From: a virus
DNA: 24,428 nucleotides
Strand: one strand, 5' to 3'
Virus record (IMG/VR): IMGVR_UViG_3300033155_000086
Span: 1-24,428 of that record
The notes below the pieces were generated by a model. That model ran no database searches, was not told the origin of the DNA, and saw only the letters and a list, made by a program, of their open reading frames with translations. The translations under genes and the position numbers were made by a program. The number at the start of each line of letters is the position of its first letter. Positions within the stretch are counted from its first letter, which is position 1. Shown piece after piece: positions 296 through 16,713 of this stretch.

Positions 296-735
296 AATTA
301 GTAGCTAGTGACATTAAAGAGTTAAACTTACTTAAGCATTATAGAATTATTAGAAAGTGGGCATGCAAAAATAACAACTTAACTGATGCTGATTTAGAAG
401 TTTTAATTTATTTAGACTGTATGGATCTTTTTAGTAAGTATGATTTTGAACAAGGTGTTTATTCTTACAGTTGGGATAACAGAAGATGGAGTAGGTTATT
501 AAAAGATGGTTGGATAACTGTGTGGAGACATAGAAACAGAACTACACAAAAATATAATATATATAAAGTATCATTTAAATGTAAACAACTTATAATGAGA
601 ATTTATAGAATCATGCTAGGCGAAGATGATATACCAACAAGTGCTAGAAGAAACAAATTAATAGCTGGAGATACATATACAGACAAAGTAATGACAAAAG
701 CTATATATAACGTAAACAAAGACAAACAAAGATGA
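292..735 (+). CDS. hypothetical protein, possible MarR-like winged helix
   Basis: The 147-residue basic protein has a helical N-terminal half (residues 8-50, with LTDADLEVLIYLDCM at about 30-44). A segment like the recognition helix and wing of a winged-helix domain follows: RLLKDGWITVWRHRN, then a Tyr-rich strand and a final helix (KCKQLIMRIYRIMLG). The order of helix, LLKDGWI turn, arginine-rich wing and C-terminal helix resembles MarR-type DNA-binding proteins, but no residue proves it. The tail after residue 115 is polar and basic. It overlaps the co-chaperonin and the next gene by ATGA, so it belongs to one polycistronic unit. It could be a late regulator or a nucleoid or virion DNA-binding protein. 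Confidence 0.6.
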   Translation: MKLVASDIKELNLLKHYRIIRKWACKNNNLTDADLEVLIYLDCMDLFSKYDFEQGVYSYSWDNRRWSRLLKDGWITVWRHRNRTTQKYNIYKVSFKCKQLIMRIYRIMLGEDDIPTSARRNKLIAGDTYTDKVMTKAIYNVNKDKQR

Positions 736-1169
736 GCAACAGTCCATTAAAACTTTTCGGAAGCAGAAGAAGAAGAAAAAGAAGAAAAGAAAAGCTAGCT
801 GCAATGAATCCAGCTGAAAGAGCCGCGTACCAAGCAAGAAAACAAAGCTTAATGAACTCTCTTGGTGGTGGAATAGGAAATATAGCAGCTAATAGTTTAA
901 CTAATTTTGGAGGAACTAATAACCAAGGAGATGTTCAGTCACAAATTTCTGAAATAAATTCTAAACTTGATACACTTACTGGTGGTGGTAATACTGTTGG
1001 TAACAATACAATACAAACACCTGGTGGTGATTTATCAAATCCATCAGTTATAGATCCAATGCAAGCTGAAGAAACAATGATGGGCGGAGACGATGGAGTT
1101 GTAGACGGAAGTGCTTTAGCTAAAATTAGAAAATATAAAGGAAGTTGTAAAATGAAAAGAAATAATTAA
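732..1169 (+). CDS. small basic/glycine-rich putative virion protein with SPL motif
   Basis: I do not recognise a family for this 145-residue protein. It opens with MSNSPLKLFGS followed by a dense Arg/Lys run (residues 12-22) and an Ala/Lys helix (KLAAMNPAERAAYQARKQ). A Gly/Asn-rich linker comes next, then a short predicted coil (SQISEINSKLDTL) and a low-complexity Gly/Asn/Thr stretch. An acidic segment (residues 113-126) and a basic end (KIRKYKGSCKMKRNN) close it. The arginine-rich head could bind nucleic acid. It is the first of a run of tiny proteins sharing Ser-Pro-Leu/Phe near the N-terminus. Its ATG overlaps the preceding TGA. Confidence 0.65.
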   Translation: MSNSPLKLFGSRRRRKRRKEKLAAMNPAERAAYQARKQSLMNSLGGGIGNIAANSLTNFGGTNNQGDVQSQISEINSKLDTLTGGGNTVGNNTIQTPGGDLSNPSVIDPMQAEETMMGGDDGVVDGSALAKIRKYKGSCKMKRNN

Positions 1170-1185
1170 TTAATAAATAAATATT

Positions 1186-1404
1186 ATGCATCACGGAAAA
1201 TATGATCCTTCAATGGAAAAATTAAAACCTGGAACTAAAGTAGGTATAGTAGGTGAATCTCACGTATGGGACGGACCTTTAAATCAGGTAGGTAGAGCAC
1301 ATGGGATGGGTTCAAGTTCAGGTATAACTGGCATGGAAGTATTAAAAGCACCTGCAAAAGGTGGTGGTATGAATCCAGTGTTAAAAGCACAAAGTAAAAT
1401 ATAA
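1186..1404 (+). CDS. hypothetical 72-residue Gly/Lys-rich protein
   Basis: This short protein begins MHHGKYDPSMEKLKPGTKVG and contains several glycine turns, a WDGPLNQVGRAHGMG segment and a basic C-terminus (PVLKAQSKI). No family is recognised, and no membrane segment or cysteine is present. The start is preceded by an A/T-only leader with no Shine-Dalgarno box. The last base of its TAA stop is the first base of the next ATG, indicating termination-reinitiation coupling. It sits in the mini-protein cluster and is probably a minor virion or assembly-associated protein, by context only. Confidence 0.6.
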   Translation: MHHGKYDPSMEKLKPGTKVGIVGESHVWDGPLNQVGRAHGMGSSSGITGMEVLKAPAKGGGMNPVLKAQSKI

Positions 1405-1604
1405 TGAGATCTCCATTTTATAAAGAAGGATTTCCTGAAATTAAACCAGAGAACAAAGGTAAATTTACAGCATGGGCTAAAAAGAACGGTTTTAAAGACG
1501 CTTGTTCTGCTGCATCATCTGTAATGTCAAGTAAAGATAAATATAGCGAAGAAGTTGTTAAAATGGCTAACTACGCTAATAACTTTGGTTGTAAAAATAA
1601 ATAA
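1404..1604 (+). CDS. small SPF-motif protein with helical domain and paired Cys
   Basis: The 66-residue protein starts MRSPFYKEGFPEIKP and continues into a compact, probably helical domain (KGKFTAWAKKNGFKDACSAA, then SSKDKYSEEVVKMANYANNFGC). The two cysteines, C34 and C63, flank the last helices and could be close in space. The pattern of a basic first helix, then DKYS, then a helix ending KMANYANNFG is one I associate with small proteins found repeatedly in marine and Bacteroidetes phage genomes. Their function is unknown to me. It is coupled to the preceding gene (TAATG). A structural or packaged role is inferred from location and basic charge. Confidence 0.65.
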   Translation: MRSPFYKEGFPEIKPENKGKFTAWAKKNGFKDACSAASSVMSSKDKYSEEVVKMANYANNFGCKNK

Positions 1605-1608
1605 TAAT

Positions 1609-2004
1609 ATGGCATTTAAAATAAAAAACTTTTACGGATCACCTTTGTATAGCTCTAGTCCTGATAGACCTTTCACAACTGGAGACACGGAAAGAAAAGA
1701 AAAAAAATTAGACAAAACTATAAAGCAATTATCAGAACCAATGTCTGATAAGAAAAAAGCTAGAAAAGAAAAGAAGTTACTTAAAACAGCTGATCAATTA
1801 GAAAGAAATGCTAGTGGAGATAAAACAACTCCTTTTTTAAATATAAGATCTTGTAAAGATATTCAAGATGAAATAAATAAAAAACAAGCTGAGATAAAAA
1901 AAATGAGAGATTTAACTAAAAAAGATAAAAAAGTTCGTAACTGGGATAATTTATCTGATCAAGTTGATGGTCTTAGAGAAGAATTAAAAAACTGTAAAAA
2001 ATAA
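1609..2004 (+). CDS. MAFK/SPL-header coiled-coil protein
   Basis: The 131-residue reading starts at the ATG at 1609, which follows the previous stop by four bases. The same frame is open to an ATG at 1555, but that would overlap the previous gene, and the 1609 start gives the MAFKIKNFYGSPLYSSS header shared with the gene at 2359. After the header, residues 28-68 are almost pure Lys/Glu helix. A Pro-containing linker leads to a second helical hairpin (residues 82-129) bracketed by C82 and C129, which could form a disulfide. The protein is strongly charged and has no membrane segment. It is a probable virion-associated or assembly protein of unknown function. Confidence 0.65.
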   Translation: MAFKIKNFYGSPLYSSSPDRPFTTGDTERKEKKLDKTIKQLSEPMSDKKKARKEKKLLKTADQLERNASGDKTTPFLNIRSCKDIQDEINKKQAEIKKMRDLTKKDKKVRNWDNLSDQVDGLREELKNCKK

Positions 2005-2008
2005 AAAT

Positions 2009-2356
2009 ATGAGTTCACCATTTTCAAAAAAATTCCACGCGTACGGTAAAGATCCTGTAAAAATGTTAGGAGATTTAAATAAAGACGGTAAAATGTCAGG
2101 TTGGGAGCAAGCAAGACAAGATAAAATAGAAGCTAACTCACCTAATAAAATGCTTTCACCATTTAATAAAAAAGAACCAGCAATGGATCCATGCTCAGCA
2201 GAGTTTGACTACGAAGTAGCAACAGACGCTGGTATGACAGCTAAGCAAATAAGAGAAGCTAGAAAAAAATGTGCTGGAAAAACAAAACCAAAACAAAACG
2301 TTAAACAAGTTCGCGAAGATGAAGATCAAGTTAAAGCGGCTGCAGCAAGAGCATAA
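2009..2356 (+). CDS. SPF-motif small protein with EF-hand-like loop
   Basis: The 115-residue protein opens MSSPFSKKFHAYG and repeats the motif internally (NKMLSPFNKKEP, residues 47-57). Residues 22-33 read DLNKDGKMSGWE, which fits an EF-hand/dockerin calcium loop: D at position 1, N at 3, D at 5, G at 6, a hydrophobic residue at 8 and E at 12. A helix (EQARQDKIEA) follows, as in an EF-hand. C62 and C88 flank a further helical segment (SAEFDYEVATDAGMTAKQIR), and the tail is charged and Ala-rich. Calcium binding is predicted from the motif and not proven. It lies four bases after the previous gene. Confidence 0.65.
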   Translation: MSSPFSKKFHAYGKDPVKMLGDLNKDGKMSGWEQARQDKIEANSPNKMLSPFNKKEPAMDPCSAEFDYEVATDAGMTAKQIREARKKCAGKTKPKQNVKQVREDEDQVKAAAARA

Positions 2357-2358
2357 TT

Positions 2359-2607
2359 ATGGCATTTAAAATACCTAATTTTTATTCAAAATCTCCATTA
2401 CATGGAAGTTACTATAACCCAAAAGGTGAAACTTATATATCTGAAGTTGGTATGATACAAGATGCGGCTAATGCAACTATAGATGCTAAAAATAAACAAC
2501 AAAAAGATTTTAAAAACATTGGGAAAATGATAGACGGACAATTATACACGCAAGAGATGTATGATTCACAATATAATCCACCAAAAGAAGAAAAAGAAGA
2601 AAAATAA
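2359..2607 (+). CDS. MAFK/SPL-header small protein
   Basis: The 82-residue protein begins MAFKIPNFYSKSPLHGSYYN, closely matching the header of the protein at 1609 (MAFKI-x-NFY, then SPL), while the rest is unrelated. The body is a helical stretch (SEVGMIQDAANATIDAKNKQ), then a short GKMIDGQLYTQEMYDSQYN segment and a Glu/Lys tail. The middle resembles short adaptor or cargo proteins, but I do not recognise a family. The start lies two bases after the preceding stop. The reuse of one header on different bodies argues that the header is a functional tag, possibly for capsid incorporation. Confidence 0.65.
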   Translation: MAFKIPNFYSKSPLHGSYYNPKGETYISEVGMIQDAANATIDAKNKQQKDFKNIGKMIDGQLYTQEMYDSQYNPPKEEKEEK

Positions 2608-2608
2608 A

Positions 2609-2863
2609 ATGGGACACAAAGGACATTACGGAGAATACACAGGTAACGCTAAATGGTCAAAAAACCATGCGGATACTAAAGTAACAAAATCTAATTACAA
2701 AGCAACTAAAAAAGACGATGAAGCTCATATGACGTATCTTAAAGAAGATATTAAATATGATAACAAACATGGTCATAGTGATAAAAACATGACAGCTGAT
2801 GAAAAACATATTTCAAGATTAGCTGGAGACTTAAAATACGATAATAAAAAATTTAAAAAATAA
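2609..2863 (+). CDS. small His/Lys-rich protein with internal repeat
   Basis: The 84-residue reading starts at ATG 2609 (MGHKGHYGEYTGNAKW). An upstream ATG at 2561 in the same frame would add a poly-Lys extension that is only the out-of-frame end of the previous gene, so it is rejected. The C-terminal half holds two copies of a roughly 15-residue unit (HMTYLKEDIKYDNK and HISRLAGDLKYDNK), about 30 residues apart, both ending in DxKYDNK. It is rich in Lys, His, Asp and Asn, with no hydrophobic core segment long enough for a membrane. Function is unknown; it may be nucleic-acid or metal binding. Confidence 0.6.
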   Translation: MGHKGHYGEYTGNAKWSKNHADTKVTKSNYKATKKDDEAHMTYLKEDIKYDNKHGHSDKNMTADEKHISRLAGDLKYDNKKFKK

Positions 2864-2867
2864 AACT

Positions 2868-3191
2868 ATGTACGATAAAGGAGCACCAACTAAAAACCTA
2901 AACAAAGGTTACAAAAGCGAATCAGTTAAAACTGAAAGATCAAATTTAATGAATGACAATCCTGTAGCTAAAGATGCTAGCGGAGGAAGATCATGGATGT
3001 CAAAACATTCACAATCAAAAATGGGTGGATCACCTCTAACACACAAAGGAGATCCTACACATGGTTTTAATCAAGGCTCAACTGGAGATGGTAAAGATAA
3101 AGAAAGAAGAAAAGCTCATCTAAAAAAAGTAAAACACGGAAGAAATGGTGAACACTCACGATTTGTAGGAGAAAACAACCGTAAATCATAA
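2868..3191 (+). CDS. small basic low-complexity protein with SPL motif
   Basis: This 107-residue protein looks disordered and very rich in Lys, Ser, Gly, His and Asn. It contains GGSPLTHKGDPTHGFNQG at about residues 53-70, an internal version of the Ser-Pro-Leu motif of neighbouring proteins, and ends in a strongly basic stretch (KERRKAHLKKVKHGRNG). No domain is recognised. It is the last gene before a short gap carrying a promoter-like element and an A/C-only leader. A DNA-associated or packaged virion role is possible, inferred from charge and position. Confidence 0.6.
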   Translation: MYDKGAPTKNLNKGYKSESVKTERSNLMNDNPVAKDASGGRSWMSKHSQSKMGGSPLTHKGDPTHGFNQGSTGDGKDKERRKAHLKKVKHGRNGEHSRFVGENNRKS

Positions 3192-3252
3192 CAGTAGAGA
3201 ACTGTATAAAACTCGCAAAACATAAACACAAACAAAACAAAACACAAACAAA
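3191..3252 (+). promoter_or_regulatory. promoter-like element and A/C-only leader before decoration-type gene
   Basis: The gap contains ACAGT-AGAGA-ACTGT (3191-3205), a 5-bp inverted repeat, running into GTATAAA at 3204-3210. The TATA block is 48 bases before the ATG, the same spacing as a similar block before 14769. From 3224 to 3252 the sequence contains only A and C, which predicts an unstructured mRNA leader suited to strong translation without a Shine-Dalgarno box. Promoter activity is inferred. Confidence 0.4.
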
Positions 3253-3639
3253 ATGGCAAAATTTATTAAATTCAGCGTAAGAAACTCAGCCGCTGTACAA
3301 CCATTAGGACCAACAGAAAACATCTTAGTAAATGTAGAAGACATTGCAAGAGTTCAAGCAACTGGAGCAACAGGAGCTAACGCTAAAACAGCTATAATTG
3401 GTTTAACTGGTAGAGCTGCTCAAGCTGCAGGTTACCAAAAGCTAACTTTAACAGTATCTACTAGTCTTTCAGCTGCTGTAAATCCAACAATTGTAAATGG
3501 ACAAAACAACCCTATTGTTGCTGCTATCCGTTCTGCAATGACTGCTAATCCAGGTGGAGTTGTAGCTTCAGCTCAATTAGGACTTGATCAAGCTGCTACA
3601 CCAGTTCAAATGTACTGGAGAACTGCTGCATTCGCATAA
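3253..3639 (+). CDS. probable head decoration or minor structural protein
   Basis: The 128-residue protein is Ala/Thr/Val-rich with little Lys: MAKFIKFSVRNSAAVQPLG, then ENILVNVEDIARVQATGATG and alternating beta-type segments, ending QMYWRTAAFA. The pattern of an N-terminal strand, a VNVEDI segment and then beta and Ala-rich helices resembles small abundant structural proteins in related marine phages. Its codon use is biased towards GCT/GCA, GTA and GGA and looks like the capsid gene, unlike the lysine-rich neighbours, suggesting high expression. The dedicated upstream A/C leader supports this. Decoration of the capsid is the best guess; another minor virion protein is possible. Confidence 0.6.
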   Translation: MAKFIKFSVRNSAAVQPLGPTENILVNVEDIARVQATGATGANAKTAIIGLTGRAAQAAGYQKLTLTVSTSLSAAVNPTIVNGQNNPIVAAIRSAMTANPGGVVASAQLGLDQAATPVQMYWRTAAFA

Positions 3640-3647
3640 TAATCAGC

Positions 3648-3803
3648 ATGAGATCTAGAGGATTAGGAGATGACATAGAGAAGTTTACTAAAGCTTCTGG
3701 TATCAAAAAACTGGTTGATAATGTATCAAAAGGTTTAAACATTCCCTGCGGCTGTCAAAGTCGTAGGGATGCTTTAAACAAATTACTACCTTATAAAAAA
3801 TAA
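3648..3803 (+). CDS. 51-residue CxC mini-protein
   Basis: An ATG at 3648 opens a 51-residue frame ending in TAA at 3801-3803, exactly filling the space between neighbours. The product begins MRSRGLGDDIEKFTKASGIKK, continues with an amphipathic helix (LVDNVSKGLN), then a PCGCQSRRDALNKLLPYKK tail. The CGC pair beside an arginine pair suggests a metal-binding or disulfide element. Small proteins with the same GLGD-x-IEKFTKA and CGC-xxRRD-xLN layout recur, from memory, in marine phage genomes, which supports it being a real gene. Function is unknown. Confidence 0.65.
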   Translation: MRSRGLGDDIEKFTKASGIKKLVDNVSKGLNIPCGCQSRRDALNKLLPYKK

Positions 3804-3804
3804 T

Positions 3805-4113
3805 ATGGCTTTTAAATTAAACAACCCTCCATATAATACAAATAGCACACCTATTTACAATGTACCAATGGAAGATGGAGTTATGGGTAAAGCTAACAAT
3901 AATGGAACTATTATATTAAATAATAAATTAGATCCTTCAGAATGTGAAAAAGTTATAAATCACGAAATGATACACATAGACCAAATGAAAAGAGGTGATT
4001 TAGATTATGATGATGAAAACGTTTATTGGAAAGGTAAAACATATTCAAGAGCTGATATGGCGGAAGGTGCTAAAAACTTACCATGGGAGGCTGAAGCATA
4101 TAAAAAAGCATGA
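3805..4113 (+). CDS. putative HEXXH zinc metallopeptidase (mini, MAFK header)
   Basis: The 102-residue protein starts MAFKLNNPPYNTNSTPIYN, a variant of the header at 1609 and 2359. It contains a helix with HEMIH at residues 53-57, the HEXXH zinc-protease signature: H53 and H57 as ligands and E54 as the base. A glutamate that could be the third ligand is in NLPWEAEAY (E95 or E97). At about 100 residues it has only a catalytic core, with no signal peptide. The ATG of the holin-like gene overlaps its TGA, so the two are coupled. It could be a lysis endopeptidase, a virion maturation protease or an inactive structural relative. Confidence 0.7.
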   Translation: MAFKLNNPPYNTNSTPIYNVPMEDGVMGKANNNGTIILNNKLDPSECEKVINHEMIHIDQMKRGDLDYDDENVYWKGKTYSRADMAEGAKNLPWEAEAYKKA

Positions 4114-4562
4114 AAAAAAAATTTAATCAAACTAAAGTAGGACAGTTTTTAAGTAAAGCTGCTCCTGGAATATTAGACCTAGCTGGTGATGTATTACCTG
4201 ATGCTGGGGTTTTTGGTTTAGTAAAAAACCTTATACATAAAGATCCTGTGCTACCTGCAGAGGACAAAGAAAAAGCTCTTAAACTTTTAGAGCAAGATAT
4301 GGTAGAGATGCAAGAAATCTCAAAACGCTGGGCTAGCGATATGAAATCAGATTCGTGGCTTAGTAAAAATACTCGTCCAATGTCTTTAATATTTCTAACT
4401 GTAATGACTGTAGCTTTTATATGGGTTGATAGTCATGAATCATTATCTTTTACAGTAGAACAAGAATGGATAAGTTTATTAAAAACATTAACCGCGACAG
4501 TTTATGTAGCCTATTTTGGTTCACGTGGTGTAGAAAAATTTAAAACAATAAGTAAACAATAA
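4110..4562 (+). CDS. holin-like protein, GTA 3TM holin family type
   Basis: This 150-residue protein has a helical N-terminal part (residues 10-45), a charged central helix (EDKEKALKLLEQDMVEMQEI) and the motif RWASDMKSDSWLSKNTRP. Two hydrophobic segments (about 90-106 and 121-138) follow, ending AYFGSRGVEKF. The SDSWLSKNTRP element before paired membrane helices and the YFGSRG-x-EK ending are typical of the holin family first described in gene transfer agents. It would sit in the inner membrane and release or activate the lysis enzyme. Only two segments are strongly hydrophobic; the third could be residues 28-42. The adjacent metallopeptidase may be its partner. Confidence 0.75.
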   Translation: MKKKFNQTKVGQFLSKAAPGILDLAGDVLPDAGVFGLVKNLIHKDPVLPAEDKEKALKLLEQDMVEMQEISKRWASDMKSDSWLSKNTRPMSLIFLTVMTVAFIWVDSHESLSFTVEQEWISLLKTLTATVYVAYFGSRGVEKFKTISKQ

Positions 4563-4572
4563 AAATAAAAAA

Positions 4573-5145
4573 ATGGGTAAATTTCCAATAAGTGATGGTA
4601 TAGCTGGTAAAGCAATGCGTTCAACAGGTTTAGTAGGAACTCCAAATGGTAAACCAGCTTGGATTTTTGAAAACCAAACAGGTGTTTTAGGTAATAATTT
4701 AAACAGCTCTGTATTATACATGGGCGCTACGGGTAACATAAATGTTATTGTAGCAGGAACAAGTTTAGCTTCTGTTAGTACATTAAATTTGACATCAGGA
4801 GGTGCTGCTTATAGTACTGTAACTGCAGCAACAACATGTTCTAATAATATGGCTCAAGGTTTAACTGTAGCTATAACACAAACAAGTGGAGTTATACAAT
4901 CTTTAGCTATCGTAGCTGCTGGATCTGGTTATAATCCTGGTGATATTATTACTGTAGTAGAAGCAGGTGGTGGTGCTGGAGGCGCAACAGCTGTTATAAC
5001 CGCTGTAAATGATGGAGTACCAGTTGCAGCACAAGCAATAACATTTGAAAATGTACAAGCTGGATCATTTTTACCAGTAGCTGTAGACTTTATAACATCA
5101 TTAGGTACAGGTGTAACTGAGGCTGATGTTATTATATGTAAATAA
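4573..5145 (+). CDS. Gly/Ala-rich beta structural protein
   Basis: The 190-residue protein begins MGKFPISDGIAGKAMRS and contains an NGKPAWIFENQTG segment. A beta-rich module (residues about 68-145) has the recognisable sequence GSGYNPGDIITV and a weaker partner half (LTSGGAAYSTVT). The GSGY-x-x-GD-x-IT motif occurs in beta modules of many marine phage virion proteins. Low Lys content and abundant Gly, Ala, Thr and Val suit an exposed virion protein. It is followed by a hairpin and promoter-like element. Candidate roles are capsid decoration, a head fibre or a tail accessory protein; the sequence does not discriminate between them. Confidence 0.6.
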   Translation: MGKFPISDGIAGKAMRSTGLVGTPNGKPAWIFENQTGVLGNNLNSSVLYMGATGNINVIVAGTSLASVSTLNLTSGGAAYSTVTAATTCSNNMAQGLTVAITQTSGVIQSLAIVAAGSGYNPGDIITVVEAGGGAGGATAVITAVNDGVPVAAQAITFENVQAGSFLPVAVDFITSLGTGVTEADVIICK

Positions 5146-5149
5146 GTAA

Positions 5150-5167
5150 TATATAGGTGACTATATA
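5150..5167 (+). promoter_or_regulatory. perfect 7-bp inverted repeat with GTGA loop; SP6-like promoter candidate
   Basis: TATATAG-GTGA-CTATATA is a perfect inverted repeat whose RNA would form a 7-bp stem closed by GUGA, a GNRA-type tetraloop. On DNA the same bases read ATATAGGTGACTATATAA (5151-5168), matching the SP6 RNA polymerase promoter ATTTAGGTGACACTATAG at 14 of 18 positions without gaps. Its TATA block is 41 bases before the next ATG, which is preceded by an AAATT-repeat leader. Promoter and hairpin readings are alternatives. Confidence 0.4.
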
Positions 5168-5204
5168 AATAAGTGAATATTAATAAATTAAATTAAATTA
5201 AATT

Positions 5205-5456
5205 ATGGAAGAAGCAAAAAAAATGATCAGTAAAAAACAGTTAGAAACTGTTAACAAGCAGCAAGTAGAACTAAGCGAAATGCTTAGATCACTAGGTGTT
5301 TTAGATGTACAAAAAGTAAATATACATCAAAAAATAAATGATCTTTCTAAAGTTATTGAAGAAACGAAAAAAGAATTAGAAGAAGAATATGGCCAAGTAA
5401 ATATTGATCTTAAAGACGGTACTTACACAGACATTGAAAAAGAAGATGCAAAATAA
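5205..5456 (+). CDS. small coiled-coil protein
   Basis: The 83-residue protein is nearly all charged helix: residues 5-65 form one or two heptad-like helices (KQLETVNKQQVELSEMLRSL and VNIHQKINDLSKVIEETKKE) joined by a glycine turn. An EEEYGQVNIDLKDGTYT tail follows. Short coiled-coil proteins with the tail YG-x-x-NIDL-x-x-G-x-(Y/F)-T recur, from memory, just upstream of terminase in related phages; their role is unknown to me. The leader is four repeats of an AAATT unit with no Shine-Dalgarno sequence. The ATG of the next gene lies inside its last codons, indicating coupling. Confidence 0.6.
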   Translation: MEEAKKMISKKQLETVNKQQVELSEMLRSLGVLDVQKVNIHQKINDLSKVIEETKKELEEEYGQVNIDLKDGTYTDIEKEDAK

Positions 5457-6278: not shown

Positions 6279-6498
6279 GGAATTAATTAAGGTTGCGAAA
6301 GAACCTATAGTAGATTCAGACGATGACATATCAGCTGATAGACTTAAAAACGCAGCAGCTACAAAAAAGCTAGCTATATTTGATTGTTTTGAAATACTTA
6401 ACCGTATTGAAGAAGAAAAAAATATGTTAGAAGAAAAACCTAAAGAAGTTAAAAAAGAAACTACGTTTCGTGGTTTTGCTGAAGGGAGATCTAAATAA
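6223..6498 (+). CDS. small helical protein, candidate small terminase subunit by position
   Basis: The 91-residue acidic/helical protein (MNTKETKLNIIQAGQIAVEE) has helices at about 8-26, 38-65 and 65-76 and ends in a basic FRGFAEGRSK tail. It immediately precedes the large terminase gene and shares the last base of its stop with that ATG, which is where the small terminase subunit often sits. No helix-turn-helix is evident, so the assignment rests on position only. The start overlaps the upstream gene by 56 bases, but no later start would keep the conserved N-terminal helix. Alternatively it is a terminase or portal accessory protein. Confidence 0.6.
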   Translation: MNTKETKLNIIQAGQIAVEELIKVAKEPIVDSDDDISADRLKNAAATKKLAIFDCFEILNRIEEEKNMLEEKPKEVKKETTFRGFAEGRSK

Positions 6499-8708
6499 TG
6501 TATAAGCAAACTTTATATAAAATAATAAAAGACCATGTAAAACCTAAAGTTCTTAAAAGAATGAATAGGTATAGTAAATGGGAATATGGATATAACGAAG
6601 AGCATGATATGGTTGTTATATCTAAGACTGGGCAAATTGGAGATATATACGAAATACAAAATCTTAAAATAGCTTTACCTAAACAAAACAATGTTCATAA
6701 GTTTGAAAAAAACAAATGGACTAGATTTGAATATCCTAAGATATTAAGCAGAATAAAAACAGTATTTGACTGGAGAGAATACCCTGAGGATTTTAAAGAG
6801 ACATGGTACGATTATATTGATACTGAATTTAAAAGACGCGAAGAAGGTTTTTGGTATATAAATAAAGATATACCTACATATTTAACAGGTACTCATTACA
6901 TGTACTTACAATGGTCAAAAATTGATGTTGGACAACCAGACTTTAGAGAATCAAATAGATTATTTTTTATATTTTGGGAAGCATGTAGAGCTGATCAAAG
7001 AAGTTATGGCATGTGTTATCTTAAAAATAGACGATCTGGTTTTTCTTTTATGGCTTCTGGCGAAACTGTTAATATGGCTACCATATCTAGTGATGCTCGT
7101 TTTGGTATACTATCTAAATCAGGTGCTGATGCTAAAAAAATGTTCACAGATAAAGTTGTACCAATATCAGTTAACTATCCTTTCTTTTTTAAACCAATAC
7201 AAGATGGTATGGATAGACCTAAAACAGAGTTAGCATATCGTGTGCCAGCATCTAAATTTACAAGAAGGTCTATAGTTTCTACAGATAAACAAGAAGATCT
7301 TACAGGGCTTGATACAACTATTGACTGGAAAAATACTGGAGACAATGCTTATGATGGTGAGAAATTAAAATTATTAGTACATGATGAAAGTGGTAAATGG
7401 GAAAGACCTAATAATATAGAAAACAACTGGCGTGTTACTAAAACAACATTAAGATTAGGTTCTAGAATTATAGGTAAATGTATGATGGGATCAACATCGA
7501 ATGCTTTAGATAAAGGTGGTAGAAATTTTAAAAAATTATACGATGACTCAGATGTTACAAAAAGAAATGCAAATGGACAAACTCGTTCAGGACTATATTC
7601 TTTGTTCATTCCTATGGAATGGAATTACGAGGGATACATTGATTCTTATGGCATGCCTGTCTTCGAAACACCACAAAAACCAGTGTTTGGACCTCATGGA
7701 ACGCCAATCAAACTTGGGGTTATTGAATACTGGGATAACGAGGTAGAAGGTCTTAAAGATGATCAAGATGGTTTAAATGAATTTTATAGACAGTTTCCTC
7801 GTACAACTAAACACGCTTTTAGAGATGAGTCTAAAATGTCTTTATTTAATTTAACTAAGATATATCAACAAATAGATTTTAATGAAGATTTAAAAAACTC
7901 AGTATCTATTACTCAAGGTAATTTTCAATGGGAAAATAGTGAAAAAGATACAAGAGTTATATTTGCACCTAGCAAACAAGGTAGATTTTATATAACCTGG
8001 GTTCCTCCAGCTCATCTACAAAATAAAAGGTTTATTAAAAACGGTGTTAATTACCCAGGTAATGAACATTGTGGTGCTTTTGGATGTGATCCTTATGATA
8101 TATCAGGTACGGTAGATAAAAGAGGATCAAACGGTTCTTTACATGGTTTAACTAAGTTTAGCATGGAAGAAGTTCCGCCAAATCATTTTTTCTTAGAATA
8201 TATCGCTCGTCCACAAACAGCTGAAATATTTTTTGAAGACGTACTTATGGCTTGCGTATTTTATGGTATGCCAATATTAGCAGAAAACAATAAACCAAGA
8301 TTACTTTATTACTTTAAACGTAGAGGTTATAGAGGTTTTGCAATGAACAGGCCAGATAAAAAAAGAAATAAATTATCAGTAACAGAAAGAGAAATAGGTG
8401 GTATACCTAATTCAAGTGAAGATATAAAACAAGCTCACGCGTCTGCCATAGAAACATATGTAGAAACATTTGTTGGTTTAAAAGAAACAGGATATGGAGA
8501 TATGTATTTTCAAAGAACTCTAGAAGATTGGTCTAGGTTTAATATAAATAATAGAACATCACATGATGCCTCTATTAGTTCTGGATTAGCGTTAATGGCT
8601 TGTAACAAGCATAGATATGCTCCAAACAATAAAATTAAATTAAAACCAGTTGATCTAGGTATAAAAAGATACAACAACAAAGGAACTTTATCAAAAATTA
8701 TAAATTAA
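6498..8708 (+). CDS. terL: terminase large subunit
   Basis: The 736-residue protein is the ATPase-nuclease that drives DNA into the prohead. A degenerate Walker A is at residues 176-183 (KNRRSGFS), Walker B with the catalytic pair D296-E297 is in LLVHDE, and a coupling motif is at about 328-335 (CMMGSTSN). The RNase-H-like nuclease domain begins at GAFGCDPYD (D531). A second acidic site is likely at E596 (PILAEN) and a third at D690 in HDASISSGLALMA. The N-terminal 120 residues are extra to the core. A purine-rich GAAGGGAG lies 10-17 bases before the ATG, one of the few SD-like boxes here. It abuts the portal gene (TAATG), giving the classic order terminase-portal. Confidence 0.92.
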   Translation: MYKQTLYKIIKDHVKPKVLKRMNRYSKWEYGYNEEHDMVVISKTGQIGDIYEIQNLKIALPKQNNVHKFEKNKWTRFEYPKILSRIKTVFDWREYPEDFKETWYDYIDTEFKRREEGFWYINKDIPTYLTGTHYMYLQWSKIDVGQPDFRESNRLFFIFWEACRADQRSYGMCYLKNRRSGFSFMASGETVNMATISSDARFGILSKSGADAKKMFTDKVVPISVNYPFFFKPIQDGMDRPKTELAYRVPASKFTRRSIVSTDKQEDLTGLDTTIDWKNTGDNAYDGEKLKLLVHDESGKWERPNNIENNWRVTKTTLRLGSRIIGKCMMGSTSNALDKGGRNFKKLYDDSDVTKRNANGQTRSGLYSLFIPMEWNYEGYIDSYGMPVFETPQKPVFGPHGTPIKLGVIEYWDNEVEGLKDDQDGLNEFYRQFPRTTKHAFRDESKMSLFNLTKIYQQIDFNEDLKNSVSITQGNFQWENSEKDTRVIFAPSKQGRFYITWVPPAHLQNKRFIKNGVNYPGNEHCGAFGCDPYDISGTVDKRGSNGSLHGLTKFSMEEVPPNHFFLEYIARPQTAEIFFEDVLMACVFYGMPILAENNKPRLLYYFKRRGYRGFAMNRPDKKRNKLSVTEREIGGIPNSSEDIKQAHASAIETYVETFVGLKETGYGDMYFQRTLEDWSRFNINNRTSHDASISSGLALMACNKHRYAPNNKIKLKPVDLGIKRYNNKGTLSKIIN

Positions 8709-11092
8709 TGAATATATATACTAATACCAATAGTGCTTTCCCTAGTCAAGTAGTGAGTGATGCTGAAAAAGCAAGCATTGAATATGGAAGTCAGGTTGCA
8801 ATGGCTATTGAATATGAGTGGTTTCGTTCAGGAAGAACTACAGGTAATAGATATTTAACTAATTGGAATCAATTTCACCAATTAAGGTTATATGCTCGTG
8901 GCGAACAAAGTGTACAGAAATATAAAGATGAATTATCTATTAATGGTGATTTGTCTTATCTTAATTTAGACTGGCAACCAGTTCCTATATTATCTAAATT
9001 TGTTGATATTGTTGTTAACGGTATATCTTCTAAAACATACGATATTAAAGCTTACGCTCAGGATCCAGAATCAGTAAAGGCTAGAACTAAATATGCTTCT
9101 AAAATACAAGAAGATATGATAGCTAAAGATTACTTAAAAGGATTAGAAGATACTTTAGGTATAAACTTATATCAAAGTACTAACCCTAGTAATCTACCTG
9201 AAACACCTGAAGAGTTAGAACTGCACATGCAGCTTAGCTACAAGCAGTCAATTGAAATAGCAGAAGAAGAAGCTATATCATCTGTGTTTGCTCAAAATAA
9301 ATTTGACTTAACAAGACGTAGATTAAACATGGACTTAACGGTTTGTGGTATTGCTGCTGCTAAGACTAATTTCAACACAGCAGAAGGAATTACAGTTGAC
9401 TATGTTGATCCTGCTTATATGGTTTATTCATACACAGAAGATCCAAACTTTGAAGATATATACTATGTAGGTGAACTTAAGTCTATTACAATAGCTGAAC
9501 TTAAAAAAGAGTTTCCAGGTATTAGTAAAGAAGAACTTGAGCGTATACAAAAAATGCCAGGTAATAGACAGTATTTAACTGGTTGGGGTGATTATGATGA
9601 AAACACCGTACAGATATTATACTTTGATTACAAGACTTATACTAATCAAGTATTTAAAATAAAACAAACAGATCAAGGCTTAATGAAAGCTTTAGAAAAA
9701 CCTGATACATTTAACCCACCTGAAAGTGATAACTTTGAAAGAGTATCAAGATCTATAGAAGTTTTATATAGTGGTGCTAAAGTTTTAGGTACTGATACAA
9801 TGCTAAAATGGGAACTTGCTGAAAACATGTCTAGACCACTAGCTGACACAACTAAAGTTGAAATGAATTATTCTATATGTTCACCTCGTATGTACAAAGG
9901 TAGAATAGAATCTTTAGTTAGCAAGTGTATAGGTTTTGCTGATATGATTCAGCTAACACATTTAAAGCTACAACAAGTAATGTCTAAAATGGTGCCAGAC
10001 GGTGTTTATTTAGACATGGATGGTTTAGCAGAGGTTGATTTAGGTAACGGTACAAACTATAATCCAGCAGAAGCACTTAACATGTATTTCCAAACTGGTA
10101 GTATTGTTGGTAGATCACTCACACAAGACGGTGATATGAATCCAGGTAAAATACCTATCCAAGAATTAAGTTCTAGTTCTGGTCAAGGTAAGATACAAAG
10201 TTTAATACAAACTTATCAGTATTATTTACAAATGATACGTGATGTAACTGGACTTAATGAAGCTCGTGATGGTAGTACGCCAGATAAACAAACATTAGTT
10301 GGCTTACAAAAATTAGCTGCTAACGCTTCTAACGTTGCTACAAGACATATTAAACAAGCTAGTTTATACATAACGTTAAGAACAGCAGAAAATATAGCTT
10401 TAAAAATAGCCGATGCTTTACAATTTCCACTTACAGCAGAATCACTAGTAAATGGTATATCAAATTATAACGTAAACACTTTAACAGAAATAAGTAATTT
10501 AAACTTACATGACTTTGGTATATTTTTAGAACTAGAGCCTGATGAAGAAGAACAAGCTCAGTTGGAACAAAACATACAAGTTGCTTTACAACAAGGTGGT
10601 ATTGATTTAGAAGATGCTATAGATTTAAGACAAATTAAAAACCTTAAGTTAGCTAATCAAATGCTTAAAATAAAACGTAAAGCTAAAGGTAAACAAGATC
10701 AAGAAAATGCTCTTGAACAAGCAGAAGCACAAGCTCAAGCTCAAGCTGATGCTGCTGAAAAAATAGCAATGTCTGAAGTACAAAAACAAGAAGCTATATC
10801 AGGTTCTAAAGTACAATTTGAACAAGCTACTAATCAAATGGAGATACAGCGTATGGAGTTAGCTGCTCAATTAGAGCAACAAAAAATGGAAGCTCAGTTT
10901 CAATTTGACATGCAGTTAAAACAAATGGATATGCAGGCCGCTAGTCAAAAAGAAAAAGAAATAGAAAATAGAAAAGACAAGCGTATTAAAATGGAAGGTA
11001 CGCAACAAAGTAAAATGATCGCTCAAAGAAAAAACGATAGCGATCCTATAAATTTTGAATTAGAAGGCGCTAATTCAATGCCCGTACAATAA
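8708..11092 (+). CDS. portal protein
   Basis: The 794-residue protein directly follows the terminase and has portal features. The N-terminal region has tryptophan-rich helices (FRSGRTTGNRYLTNWNQF, LDWQPVPILSKFVDIVVNGI). The central stem/wing region contains ENMSRPLADTTKVEMNYSIC and LTHLKLQQVMSKMVPDGVY. Then come a long helical segment with a TGLNEARDGSTPDKQTLVG motif and a Gln/Ala/Glu-rich coiled coil at roughly 665-770. The dodecamer forms the DNA channel at one capsid vertex and docks the terminase and the connector. The length fits podovirus portals with a C-terminal barrel helix. The short C-terminal tail (DPINFELEGANSMPVQ) is non-helical. The start overlaps the terminase stop by one base. 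Confidence 0.88.
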   Translation: MNIYTNTNSAFPSQVVSDAEKASIEYGSQVAMAIEYEWFRSGRTTGNRYLTNWNQFHQLRLYARGEQSVQKYKDELSINGDLSYLNLDWQPVPILSKFVDIVVNGISSKTYDIKAYAQDPESVKARTKYASKIQEDMIAKDYLKGLEDTLGINLYQSTNPSNLPETPEELELHMQLSYKQSIEIAEEEAISSVFAQNKFDLTRRRLNMDLTVCGIAAAKTNFNTAEGITVDYVDPAYMVYSYTEDPNFEDIYYVGELKSITIAELKKEFPGISKEELERIQKMPGNRQYLTGWGDYDENTVQILYFDYKTYTNQVFKIKQTDQGLMKALEKPDTFNPPESDNFERVSRSIEVLYSGAKVLGTDTMLKWELAENMSRPLADTTKVEMNYSICSPRMYKGRIESLVSKCIGFADMIQLTHLKLQQVMSKMVPDGVYLDMDGLAEVDLGNGTNYNPAEALNMYFQTGSIVGRSLTQDGDMNPGKIPIQELSSSSGQGKIQSLIQTYQYYLQMIRDVTGLNEARDGSTPDKQTLVGLQKLAANASNVATRHIKQASLYITLRTAENIALKIADALQFPLTAESLVNGISNYNVNTLTEISNLNLHDFGIFLELEPDEEEQAQLEQNIQVALQQGGIDLEDAIDLRQIKNLKLANQMLKIKRKAKGKQDQENALEQAEAQAQAQADAAEKIAMSEVQKQEAISGSKVQFEQATNQMEIQRMELAAQLEQQKMEAQFQFDMQLKQMDMQAASQKEKEIENRKDKRIKMEGTQQSKMIAQRKNDSDPINFELEGANSMPVQ

Positions 11093-11131
11093 GATTTATA
11101 GAGTTATTTAATTATTTAATTATATTATATT
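11093..11131 (+). promoter_or_regulatory. AT-only leader shared with the gene at 13895
   Basis: The 39-base gap is almost all A/T and ends in TAATTATATTATATT directly before the ATG. The same block precedes the gene at 13895, and in both cases a TTTATA element lies 30-35 bases upstream of the start. This is a candidate transcription or translation initiation element that replaces Shine-Dalgarno pairing. Function is inferred from repetition and location. Confidence 0.35.
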
Positions 11132-12346
11132 ATGTCAGAAATCAAAACAAATGAACCTGTAAAGCAGGAAGGTGACTTTAAAATAAAGTCTAAAAAACCT
11201 AAGCAACTAGGTAACAAAGAACAAGAAATTGTAAAAGTAAGTTTAAAAGAACCTTTGGTAGAAATACCAGATGATGTTGTTAAAGTTACAGTACCTAAAG
11301 AAGCTTTAAAACAAAAAGAAGATGCCATTCAAATCGGAGAAACAAAGGAGGTATCTGTGGAAAAACCATCCGGAGATAGCGCAGAGGTGGGAGAACCTGT
11401 ACAAGAGTCCAACGAGACTGCTGAAGGGTTTTCTCCAATCAAAGAAGTAACTGAAGAAGAAGTTAAGAAAGTAGAAGCAGAAGTAAAAGAAACTATAAGA
11501 GATGAAAAAGTTTTAGGTAAACAACTACCAGAAAACATTGAAAAACTAGTTTCATTCATGGAAGACACTGGTGGAACTATAGAAGATTATACTAGATTAA
11601 ATGCCGATTACACTAATGTTGATGAAGATACTTTATTAAAAGAATATTACAAAAAATCAAAACCTCATTTAAATTCAGAGGAAATAGATTTTATAATGGA
11701 AGATAGCTTCCAATATGATACAGATCTTGACGAAGAGCGTGACGTCAAAAAGAAAAAACTCGCTAAAAAAGAAGAGATTGCAAAAGCAAAAAACTTTTTA
11801 GAGGAAACGAAGAATAAATATTACGACGAAATCAAGTTGAGACCCGGCGTAACTCAGGACCAACAAAAAGCTATGGACTTTTTTAATCGCTACAACAAAC
11901 AGCAAGAACAAGCTGAGCAACAACACGATGTATTTCAAAAAAATACTAAAGAATTATTTAATAACGAATTCGAAGGTTTCGATATCAATGTTGGAGATAA
12001 AAGATTTAAGTATAATATTAAAGATGTAGATAAAGTTGCAGAAAACCAATCAAACATTAACAACCTAGTCGGGAAGTTCCTGGACGCAGAGGGCAATGTT
12101 ACTGATACAAAAGGTTATCATAAAGCTATATACGCTGCTGATAATGTCGATAGAATCGCAACTCATTTTTATGAGCAAGGAAAAGCCGACGCAGTTAAAG
12201 ACGTGGTGAACAAGTCTAAAAACTTATCACCGATAAAAGCTAGAACCCAACAAGGTGAAGTTTTTGTAAACGGCTATAAGGTTAAAGCTATTTCTGGTGC
12301 TGATTCTTCAAAATTGAAAATCAAAACAAGAAAATTTAACAATTAA
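11132..12346 (+). CDS. scaffold-like acidic assembly protein
   Basis: The 404-residue, highly charged protein lies between portal and capsid genes, where scaffolding proteins are encoded. The N-terminal third is an acidic, Pro/Val/Lys/Glu-rich disordered region (LKEPLVEIPDDVVKVTVPKE). The middle is helical coiled coil (residues about 195-270, with KKKKLAKKEEIAKAKNFLEE). A folded acidic segment with HKAIYAADNVDRIATHFYE and a basic end (NGYKVKAISGADSSKLKIKT) follow; a basic C-terminus would bind the capsid lining. Scaffold identity comes from position and composition, not a recognised signature. Several stretches use C- or G-ending codons (TCC, GTG, ATC, GAC) far more than neighbouring genes. 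It shares its AT leader with the gene at 13895. Confidence 0.65.
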   Translation: MSEIKTNEPVKQEGDFKIKSKKPKQLGNKEQEIVKVSLKEPLVEIPDDVVKVTVPKEALKQKEDAIQIGETKEVSVEKPSGDSAEVGEPVQESNETAEGFSPIKEVTEEEVKKVEAEVKETIRDEKVLGKQLPENIEKLVSFMEDTGGTIEDYTRLNADYTNVDEDTLLKEYYKKSKPHLNSEEIDFIMEDSFQYDTDLDEERDVKKKKLAKKEEIAKAKNFLEETKNKYYDEIKLRPGVTQDQQKAMDFFNRYNKQQEQAEQQHDVFQKNTKELFNNEFEGFDINVGDKRFKYNIKDVDKVAENQSNINNLVGKFLDAEGNVTDTKGYHKAIYAADNVDRIATHFYEQGKADAVKDVVNKSKNLSPIKARTQQGEVFVNGYKVKAISGADSSKLKIKTRKFNN

Positions 12347-12359
12347 AAATTAAACAATT

Positions 12360-13451
12360 ATGAGTTTAAATCCACAATTTGGTGCTATTGTTCCAAGTCC
12401 TATCCAAACTCCAAGTCCTTCAAACTACTTAGTATTTGATGGCGCGGCTGGCGGAAACTTCGCGCAACAATATTTACCAGAAATTTATGAACAAGAAGTA
12501 GAGCGTTATGGAAACAGAACGTTATCTGGCTTTTTAAGAATGGTTGGCGCTGAAATGCCAATGACATCTGATCAAGTAATTTGGTCTGAACAAAACAGAT
12601 TACATATATCTTACGATAATTGTAGTGTTGGAGCTGCTGCTGGTGGTAACAATCAGTCAGTTGTAACAATTGGTGGCGGTACTACTGCTATCAACGTTAT
12701 ATCTATCAATGATACTGTTGTACTTTTAGATCCTGCAACAGGAGCTGAAGCAAAAGGTATCGTTTTAGCAAGAGTTGCTGGTGCTGGTGGTGTTGGAACT
12801 GTTACAGTTCAACCGTTTGCTAACACATCACTTGCTGCGCAAGGGATAACTGCTGGTTCTGCAACAATTAAAATGTTTGTATATGGTTCTGATTACACAA
12901 AAGGAACAACTATTGGAGCAGGAGTAGGAAACTCTGCTGCTAGAATATCTGTTGATCCTTCTTTCACACAATTTTCTAACTCACCAATTATCATAAGAGA
13001 TCAGTACGTTGTTACTGGATCTGATATGGCACAAATCGGTTGGGTTGAAGTTGCTACTGAAGATGGAGCTTCTGGATTCTTATGGTATCTAAAAGCTGAG
13101 TCTGAAACTAGACTACGTTTCGAAGATTACTTAGAAATGGCAATGGTTGAAGGTGAACTAAACGCAAATGCTGGTGGTGCTGCAGGATCTTATGACGCTG
13201 CTAACTTACCAGGTACACAAGGTTTATTTGCTGCTATTAGAGCAAGAGGAAACGTAGAAGTAGGATTTACTGCTGCTGCTGGACTTGATGACTTTGATGC
13301 AATACTTAAAAACCTAGATACTCAAGGAGCTATTGAAGAAAACATGTTATTCTTACAGAGACAAACATCTCTTGATTTTGACGATATGTTAGCTTCTATC
13401 TCTGGTTACTGCTTTCGGTTTATTCGAAAATTCAGAAGAAATGGCACTTAA
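12360..13451 (+). CDS. major capsid protein, N-terminal part (frame interrupted)
   Basis: This 363-residue reading is the bulk of the major capsid protein. The N-terminal MSLNPQFGAIVPSPIQTP and the segment QQYLPEIYEQEVERYGNRTL form the N-arm and first helix. A long beta/Gly-rich domain follows, then LKAESETRLRFEDYLEMAMV as the spine helix. The last 14 residues (YCFRFIRKFRRNGT) are basic and do not look natural. In the +1 frame the sequence continues GLFENSEEMALNLGFSGFRR into the rest of the capsid fold at 13441. The frames must join between 13393 and 13451. Joining at TTT|C (13413-13416) gives a single protein of about 483 residues. Codon bias towards GCT, GGT and ACT fits very high expression. 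It may be mutant, mis-sequenced or programmed to shift. Confidence 0.8.
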   Translation: MSLNPQFGAIVPSPIQTPSPSNYLVFDGAAGGNFAQQYLPEIYEQEVERYGNRTLSGFLRMVGAEMPMTSDQVIWSEQNRLHISYDNCSVGAAAGGNNQSVVTIGGGTTAINVISINDTVVLLDPATGAEAKGIVLARVAGAGGVGTVTVQPFANTSLAAQGITAGSATIKMFVYGSDYTKGTTIGAGVGNSAARISVDPSFTQFSNSPIIIRDQYVVTGSDMAQIGWVEVATEDGASGFLWYLKAESETRLRFEDYLEMAMVEGELNANAGGAAGSYDAANLPGTQGLFAAIRARGNVEVGFTAAAGLDDFDAILKNLDTQGAIEENMLFLQRQTSLDFDDMLASISGYCFRFIRKFRRNGT

Positions 13452-13812
13452 CTTAGGTTTCTCTGGTTTCAGAAGAGGTTCTTATGACTTCTACAAAACT
13501 GACTGGAAATACTTAAACGACGCTTCTACAAGAGGTGCTATCGTTGGTGTTAATTCGATCGAAGGTGTATTAGTTCCTGCTGGAACTTCTACAGTATATG
13601 ATCAAATCTTAGGTACTAACATTAGAAGACCTTTCTTACACGTAAGATATAGAGCTTCTCAAGGTGACGACAGAAGAATGAAATCATGGTTAACTGGTTC
13701 TGCAGGTGGAGCATTTACTTCAACTCTTGATGCTATGGAAGTAAACTTCCTATCTGAAAGATGTTTAGTAACTCAAGCTGCTAACAACTTCGTTTTATTC
13801 CAAGGATTATAA
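13441..13812 (+). CDS. major capsid protein, C-terminal part in the +1 frame
   Basis: This reading (123 residues from the internal ATG) is the C-terminal continuation of the capsid gene at 12360, not an independent gene. The frame is open upstream to 13393, and those codons encode TAFGLFENSEEM, which runs smoothly into MALNLGFSGFRRGSYDFYKT. Later segments (LNDASTRGAIVGVNSIEGVL, NIRRPFLHVRYRASQGDDRR, FLSERCLVTQAANNFVLFQG) carry the beta strands expected of a capsid P/A domain end, with the same codon bias as the N-terminal part. If translated separately from 13441 it would be a non-functional fragment. A hairpin terminator follows 20 bases downstream. Confidence 0.78.
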   Translation: MALNLGFSGFRRGSYDFYKTDWKYLNDASTRGAIVGVNSIEGVLVPAGTSTVYDQILGTNIRRPFLHVRYRASQGDDRRMKSWLTGSAGGAFTSTLDAMEVNFLSERCLVTQAANNFVLFQGL

Positions 13813-13831
13813 TATCCATTTAATGTAATTT

Positions 13832-15521: not shown

Positions 15522-15800
15522 ATGGCATTAATAACTGAAACAAATCAACAATATTATCAAGGCGCACAAGGCTTTAGAGGTACTGGTAATGCTCTTACTA
15601 TTACAACAACTTTTGATACTGATTTAGTATTTGGTAGTTACAATCCAGCGGTTGCTGAATATGCTTTAAATAACTTTAAAATATATACTAGCACTACAGG
15701 TTTTCCAGGAAGCTGGAGTGAATATCTCTTAGCTTACACTGTTGTCAACAACGCTATTACATTCACAATTAAAAACATTAGACGGTGGTCAATATGCTAG
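15522..15800 (+). CDS. connector protein, N-terminal part (frame interrupted)
   Basis: The 92-residue reading MALITETNQQYYQGAQGFRG, then VFGSYNPAVAEYALNNFKIY and a beta-rich stretch, ends in an unnatural basic tail (KNIRRWSIC). In the +1 frame the text continues KTLDGGQYASTIAEEAIGDA and runs on into the protein at 15742. The frames must join between 15733 and 15800. A run of five A residues at 15771-15775 is the simplest site, because reading it as four gives ITFTIKTLDGGQYAST without a break. The joined protein would be about 396 residues, a believable connector or ring protein. It may reflect sequencing error, mutation or real +1 frameshifting. Confidence 0.7.
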   Translation: MALITETNQQYYQGAQGFRGTGNALTITTTFDTDLVFGSYNPAVAEYALNNFKIYTSTTGFPGSWSEYLLAYTVVNNAITFTIKNIRRWSIC

Positions 15801-16713
15801 CACTATAGCAGAAGAAGCAATAGGCGATGCTGTTGAAGAAAATTATGGTACATATCAATATGTTAAGTTAAAAGACATTATAGACAACTATATGGTTGGT
15901 TACGTAGGTGATGGTAAAATAATACAAAATGCTAAAAAATCTGATGTATTGTTTTTTGCAAAAAGATCTTTACAAGAATTTAGTTACGATACTTTAAAAA
16001 GTATTAAATCACAAGAGCTTACAATACCAGAAAGTTTATCATTAATAATGCCGCAAGATTATGTTAATTACGTAGCCTTATCTTGGATAGATTCATATGG
16101 TGTTAAAAGACCATTGTACCCAAACAACAACTTAACTATAAATCCTTACGGAAAGTTATTACAAGATGATAGAGGTGTACCAACTCAAGATAATTTTGGT
16201 GAAGACTTAGAAGGAACATCGTTAACAGTAGAGAGATGGAGGGAAACAAACGCTAATAGACTATTAAACAATCAAGCTTTAAATGAACTTGATAATCTTG
16301 CTTACGATGTTTATAACAATGATTTTGGATCAGGACCTTGGAACTGGGGAAGACTATACGGGTTAGATCCTCAATACTCTAATGTGAACGGTTGGTTTGG
16401 TATAAACGAAAGAGATGGTAAGTTTACTTTTTCTAGTAATTTAGTTAACAAGTTAATTGTATTAGAATACATATCTGATGGACTAGCTTATGACTTAGAT
16501 ACTAGAGTACCTAAAATGGCGGAAGAGGCTATGTACATGAGTATATCATATAATCTATTAGCTAACAGATCTGGCACGCCAGAAGGTATGGTTGCTAGAT
16601 TTAAAAAAGATAGAAGAGCAGCACTTAGAAATGCTAAAATAAGATTATCTAATATTAAACTTGATGAAATAGTTCAAGTGATGAGAGGTCAATCTAAATG
16701 GATTAAACACTAG
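15742..16713 (+). CDS. connector/ring protein, C-terminal part in the +1 frame
   Basis: This 323-residue reading has no natural start. Its first codon is a TTG that opens out-of-frame text, and the real continuation begins near KTLDGGQYAS from the gene at 15522. The body contains a helical ring-type segment (TYQYVKLKDIIDNYMVGYVG, VLFFAKRSLQEFSYDTLKSI), a conserved LIMPQDYVNYVALSWID motif and a C-terminal helix bundle (RVPKMAEEAMYMSISYNLLA). The order and location suggest a head-to-tail adaptor or ring, probably an analogue of crAss-like ring proteins, though that is inference. It ends with TAG, the only clear TAG terminator in the window apart from fragments, six bases before the nozzle gene. 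Confidence 0.72.
   Translation: MSTTLLHSQLKTLDGGQYASTIAEEAIGDAVEENYGTYQYVKLKDIIDNYMVGYVGDGKIIQNAKKSDVLFFAKRSLQEFSYDTLKSIKSQELTIPESLSLIMPQDYVNYVALSWIDSYGVKRPLYPNNNLTINPYGKLLQDDRGVPTQDNFGEDLEGTSLTVERWRETNANRLLNNQALNELDNLAYDVYNNDFGSGPWNWGRLYGLDPQYSNVNGWFGINERDGKFTFSSNLVNKLIVLEYISDGLAYDLDTRVPKMAEEAMYMSISYNLLANRSGTPEGMVARFKKDRRAALRNAKIRLSNIKLDEIVQVMRGQSKWIKH

Follow-up and report, generated by a model that had tools for sequence, protein, structure and literature searches.

In this work we find that the frame break in the capsid gene of this uncultured phage, whose whole 24,428-base record forms the window analysed here, is most probably an artefact of contig assembly or sequencing: the gene is one uninterrupted gene in its relatives, from which the window differs by a deletion of 14 nt. 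The break is present in the sequence and, as judged by comparison with related genes, the T run that lies close to it is not its cause. We judge a contig artefact to be the most likely origin, a real inactivating double lesion to come second, and programmed frameshifting to be very unlikely.

The initial annotation had described a capsid reading frame that ends in an off-frame tail and a +1 frame that carries the missing C-terminal part of the protein, and both observations are confirmed (Table 1). The upstream ORF ends in ...GYCFRFIRKFRRNGT, and the +1 frame, open from 13393, continues as FGLFENSEEMALNLGFSGFRR up to a stop at 13812. In a PHROG profile search the two halves match consecutive parts of a single family, phrog_13704, at positions 19-309 and 329-446 of 452 (E-values of 5.5e-45 and 1.7e-28, respectively). 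The codon CGG, called rare in the same annotation, is absent from all 6469 codons tallied in 18 chosen ORFs or in-frame parts of the window. Separately, the 3' part of the capsid gene (13300-13812) has 93-100% DNA identity to one relative, L149, with flanking bins mostly at 57-86%, which points either to strain exchange or to strong conservation.

Table 1. Coordinates of the window features referred to in the text.
Feature	Position	Strand	Remark
Terminase	6498-8708		
Portal	8708-11092		
Capsid (virion structural) gene, N-terminal part	12360..13451	+	ORF of 363 aa; out-of-frame tail past ~13406; phrog_13704 positions 19-309
Capsid junction (break 1)	13406..13407	+	14 nt of the relatives absent, part of the Gly-rich loop gone
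Capsid gene, C-terminal part	13408..13812	+	+1 frame; ATG 13441 is a conserved internal Met
TTT CGG, supposed slip site	13413..13418	+	Same bases in close relatives, there in-frame within GCT-TTC-GGT
Second broken gene, N-terminal part	15522..15800	+	Positional counterpart of Elemovirus gp23 (annotation there: virion structural protein)
Second broken gene, C-terminal part	15742..16713	+	Another frame; TTG start is a mechanical ORF start only
Second junction (break 2)	15764..15766	+	Net loss of 35 nt against relatives such as L163 and L164; position uncertain by a few bases

Loci of relatives were collected by two scans of viral contigs with the capsid halves and one with the second broken gene, keeping the best 80 per scan, which gave 227 loci among the matches listed and 161 after near-identical ones were collapsed. 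Both capsid halves are held by 222 of the 227 (143 + 79, some contigs being counted more than once), and among the matches listed 221 of these 222 read through the position of the window's junction in one frame, the exception being L194. All 143 loci of the first set are in one frame throughout, as are 77 of the 79 in the later set; the remaining two are L194 and L211, the latter being in-frame at the window's junction and carrying a one-base shift further on (~1287-1322), near the site YDQILGTN. When the 152 loci obtained before the second-gene scan were sorted by their capsid gene, 135 encoded complete proteins, 9 ran off the locus without a stop codon, 4 contained just one of the halves and 4 lay on the other strand. 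The gene of the relatives runs uninterrupted for ~484 codons, and their 104 distinct complete proteins are single chains of 470-506 aa, homologues of the kind that the initial annotation had named as counting against its own reading. Beyond the viral contigs, a single frame is likewise seen in all 23 loci that come from assemblies of bacteria or archaea and in L156, an isolate locus. For four of the 77 isolate records found (MT497071, MT497078, MW202828 and PP540027), the coordinates place the capsid halves a multiple of three apart. Some capsid relatives are found in MAGs labelled as Aenigmatarchaeota (L256, CP070801.1), Woesearchaeota (L246 and L254) or Pelagibacter (L242), labels for which mis-binning of Bacteroidetes phage contigs seems likely.

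The closest relatives are also intact at break 1. They include L002, with 93.7% amino acid identity to the window in the N-terminal part and 89.7-99% nucleotide identity in 600-base bins over 9001-13200, and L157 and L158, with 94% and 100% amino acid identity in the two capsid halves. Compared with such relatives the window has a net deletion of 14 nt in a conserved Gly-rich loop just upstream of the T run, and it is because these bases are absent that the downstream part stands in the +1 frame. The stretch CTTTCGGTTTAT is identical in the window and in L002, L003, L004, L157 and L158 (83-94% identity to the window in the N-terminal part), and the relatives read it as TTC-GGT-TTA in the capsid frame; more distant relatives have TTT, TTC, TAT or TAC at the position of TTC in the junctions listed. 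The frame change had been ascribed to the T run, and comparison of run length with homologous capsid genes gives no difference in close relatives, which have the same number of Ts in TTTCGG and a single open frame; an extra or missing T is thus rejected. The alternative that an indel is present was right in kind, although what is missing is 14 nt upstream of the run and not one base within it. The rarity of CGG is a by-product, because "TTT CGG" is the ordinary GCT-TTC-GGT read out of frame, made of a conserved Gly codon and the base that precedes it.

The glycines of the loop, G349-G350, are invariant in 55 of 55 aligned relatives; a crude Gly-Gly loop pattern matched 98 of the 104 complete proteins, with 2 of these scored as without it, and the alignment of 55 is preferred. 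A sequence search of the PDB for a solved relative of the capsid protein found nothing up to E 1, and the AlphaFold model of an intact relative (L004) has a mean pLDDT of 53.8, too poor to bear on an HK97-type fold or to place the loop on a capsid fold. As to how the bases were lost, a long overlap is seen at neither junction, and a simple direct-repeat deletion does not fit break 1, where collapse of the GGTGGT repeat of the close relatives would remove 12 nt in-frame, not 14. Homopolymer sequencing error is an unlikely cause, the losses being of 14 and 35 nt.

The larger of these losses affects a second virion gene of the same contig. At break 2, near 15765, the window has 58 nt where L163 and L164 have 93 nt and the nearby L157 and L159-L162 have 99 nt. 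This gene is in one frame in all 172 loci that hold both of its parts (92/92 and 80/80, some contigs being counted more than once), and L157, L158, L163 and L164 are intact at break 2. When the window was scanned for frame changes with 582 ORFs taken from 15 loci of relatives, no further sense gene proved to be broken in the stretches covered, the small genes of ~601-3600 and 4201-5400, where no DNA match exists among the relatives, being less well tested; the remaining multi-frame matches are antisense ORFs of 50-79 aa. With the window itself, incomplete copies and multiple loci of the same contig all counted in, breaks occur in 3 of 228 sequences for the capsid gene (the window, L194 and L211), 1 of 177 for the second gene (the window), 0 of 147 for the portal and 0 of 107 for the terminase.

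The window thus shows, in comparison with the relatives, two out-of-frame deletions: 14 nt are missing in the Gly-rich loop at 13406/13407, which moves the downstream capsid part into the +1 frame, and 35 nt are missing in another virion gene of the contig. We suggest that both arose when a mixed virus population was sequenced or assembled, and not in a living phage. Stretches common to co-existing viruses are described in two reports as giving fragmented or chimeric contigs (PMC11443906; PMC5610896), and the first of these also records errors of mismatch and indel type that probably stem from chimeras between strains (PMC11443906). In our data exact 25-mers near break 1 are common to up to 30 of the 161 collapsed loci (89th percentile), and those near break 2 are shared by few (11th percentile). 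As a cause of both breaks, shared k-mers fit break 1 and not break 2: a tangle of strains does not explain the latter, where few 25-mers are shared. Just past break 1, at ~13437-13447, the ends of four relatives' contigs (L002, L011, L014 and L027) fall within an 11-nt span. This cluster is a post-hoc observation; contig ends also bunch at ~13742-13819, where the window is unbroken, and binning the ends by 200 nt shows no excess near break 1 (5 ends at 13400-13600 versus 7 and 6 in the next two bins). Exact searches for junctions 1 and 2 found neither in other viral contigs, a collection from which the window's own record may be omitted.

That the deletions are real, and that the record represents a defective phage genome, either a dead molecule that forms a minority or an integrated copy undergoing decay, is the reading that survives next best, and we consider it improbable. 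Small deletions without long terminal repeats can arise in nature, and two frame-breaking deletions in one contig are compatible with such a genome. However, no other sense gene is broken in the stretches of the window that the frame scan covered, no integrated copy was seen in an isolate genome (all 23 loci from genome contigs are titled MAG), and a dead molecule would presumably need to dominate its population in order to be assembled.

A diverged relative, L194 (IMGVR_UViG_3300033144_000281), has a 14-nt deletion of its own at ~1183, in the same Gly-rich loop and different from that of the window. The equal length may or may not be a coincidence. Its capsid gene also contains an exact 41-nt tandem duplication at 805-886, which looks as if two contig ends had been joined with their overlap kept twice, as in a bad assembly. 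The two 14-nt deletions, which start about nine bases apart in diverged strains, could be taken to mean that the loop is a true deletion hot spot, with the affected phages surviving by some recoding or through complementation by intact co-infecting relatives, an explanation to which we give very little credence. Scanning for further alleles with a deletion in this loop yielded five contigs, of which only L238, from the same contig as L194, represents the capsid gene; the four others look like chance matches.

The other option of the initial annotation, that two capsid forms are made by a +1 slip at UUU CGG, fares worse still, and we hold such programmed frameshifting, for which Listeria phage PSA or, with -1, T7 gp10A/10B would be comparable cases, to be very improbable. 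On paper UUU-C next to a codon that the counted ORFs otherwise do not use makes a plausible slip site, yet the same TTTCGG lies in-frame in close relatives, the site is not conserved together with a shifted downstream part, and the viral-contig loci with both halves, with the one exception given above, have them in a single frame at this junction. A slip at UUU would moreover not restore the protein of the relatives, because the missing loop residues stay missing: the product would be without about five of them, including the invariant G349-G350. It would also leave break 2 unexplained. No stimulatory RNA structure beyond chance was found downstream (z 0.15; folding equalled or bettered by 105 of 200 shuffles), a feature that programmed +1 frameshifting does not always need. 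It is scarcely credible that the capsid is naturally two separately translated proteins, 12360-13451 and 13441-13812. The overlap of these ORFs and the ATG at 13441 speak for it, but a separate start there is rejected, this codon being the invariant internal Met362 of the aligned relatives in a single-ORF family, and among the 222 loci the halves are in different frames at the junction only in L194, which is itself damaged.

The capsid frame change is therefore not evidence for ribosome slipping at the T run, and the contig is unreliable in two virion genes. More generally, these results are a caution that an apparent recoding site, a shifty codon followed by a rare one, can be made by an upstream deletion, which comparison with homologues reveals at once.

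Among known systems, a parallel for a contig artefact is offered by the indels and chimeras of short-read assembly in mixed viral populations. The breaks of the window resemble these in being contig-specific, in numbering more than one and in that break 1 lies near the contig ends of some relatives; they differ in that break 2 is without shared k-mers and in that the artefact is one we infer here. In Listeria phage PSA the capsid gene contains a programmed +1 frameshift, and its capsid C-terminus lies in the +1 frame, as it does here; by comparison, the relatives of the window are single-frame, with no slip site used in two frames and no downstream structure beyond chance. T7 gp10A/10B, in which a -1 frameshift yields two capsid forms from one gene, as had been proposed for the window, differs in the direction of the shift and in that the shift adds an optional tail, whereas the other-frame part in the window is conserved and makes up about the final quarter of the protein.

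Profile matches and gene order place the window close to the Flavobacterium phages of the Elemovirus group and to the related phages of Cellulophaga and Maribacter. At its start (35-295) it encodes a GroES-like co-chaperonin (Cpn10, E 2.9e-10); in Elemovirus the co-chaperonin gene directly precedes the terminase, whereas in the window many small genes lie between the two. Several small genes in 1404-4113 have similar motifs at their start or further inside, for example MAFKIxNFYxxSPL or SPF/SPL, and possibly form a paralogous family of small proteins. From the terminase on the order is the same as in Elemovirus NC_055853 (terminase, portal, structural, capsid, one gene, two structural, one large), the window having terminase, portal, structural and capsid genes followed by further virion genes. 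Elemovirus gp26 (NC_055853, CDS 37924-39297; phrog_13704, virion structural protein) is homologous over both halves of the window's capsid gene, and it is one uninterrupted CDS of 457 codons, whereas the gene of the window is cut by the 14-nt deletion.
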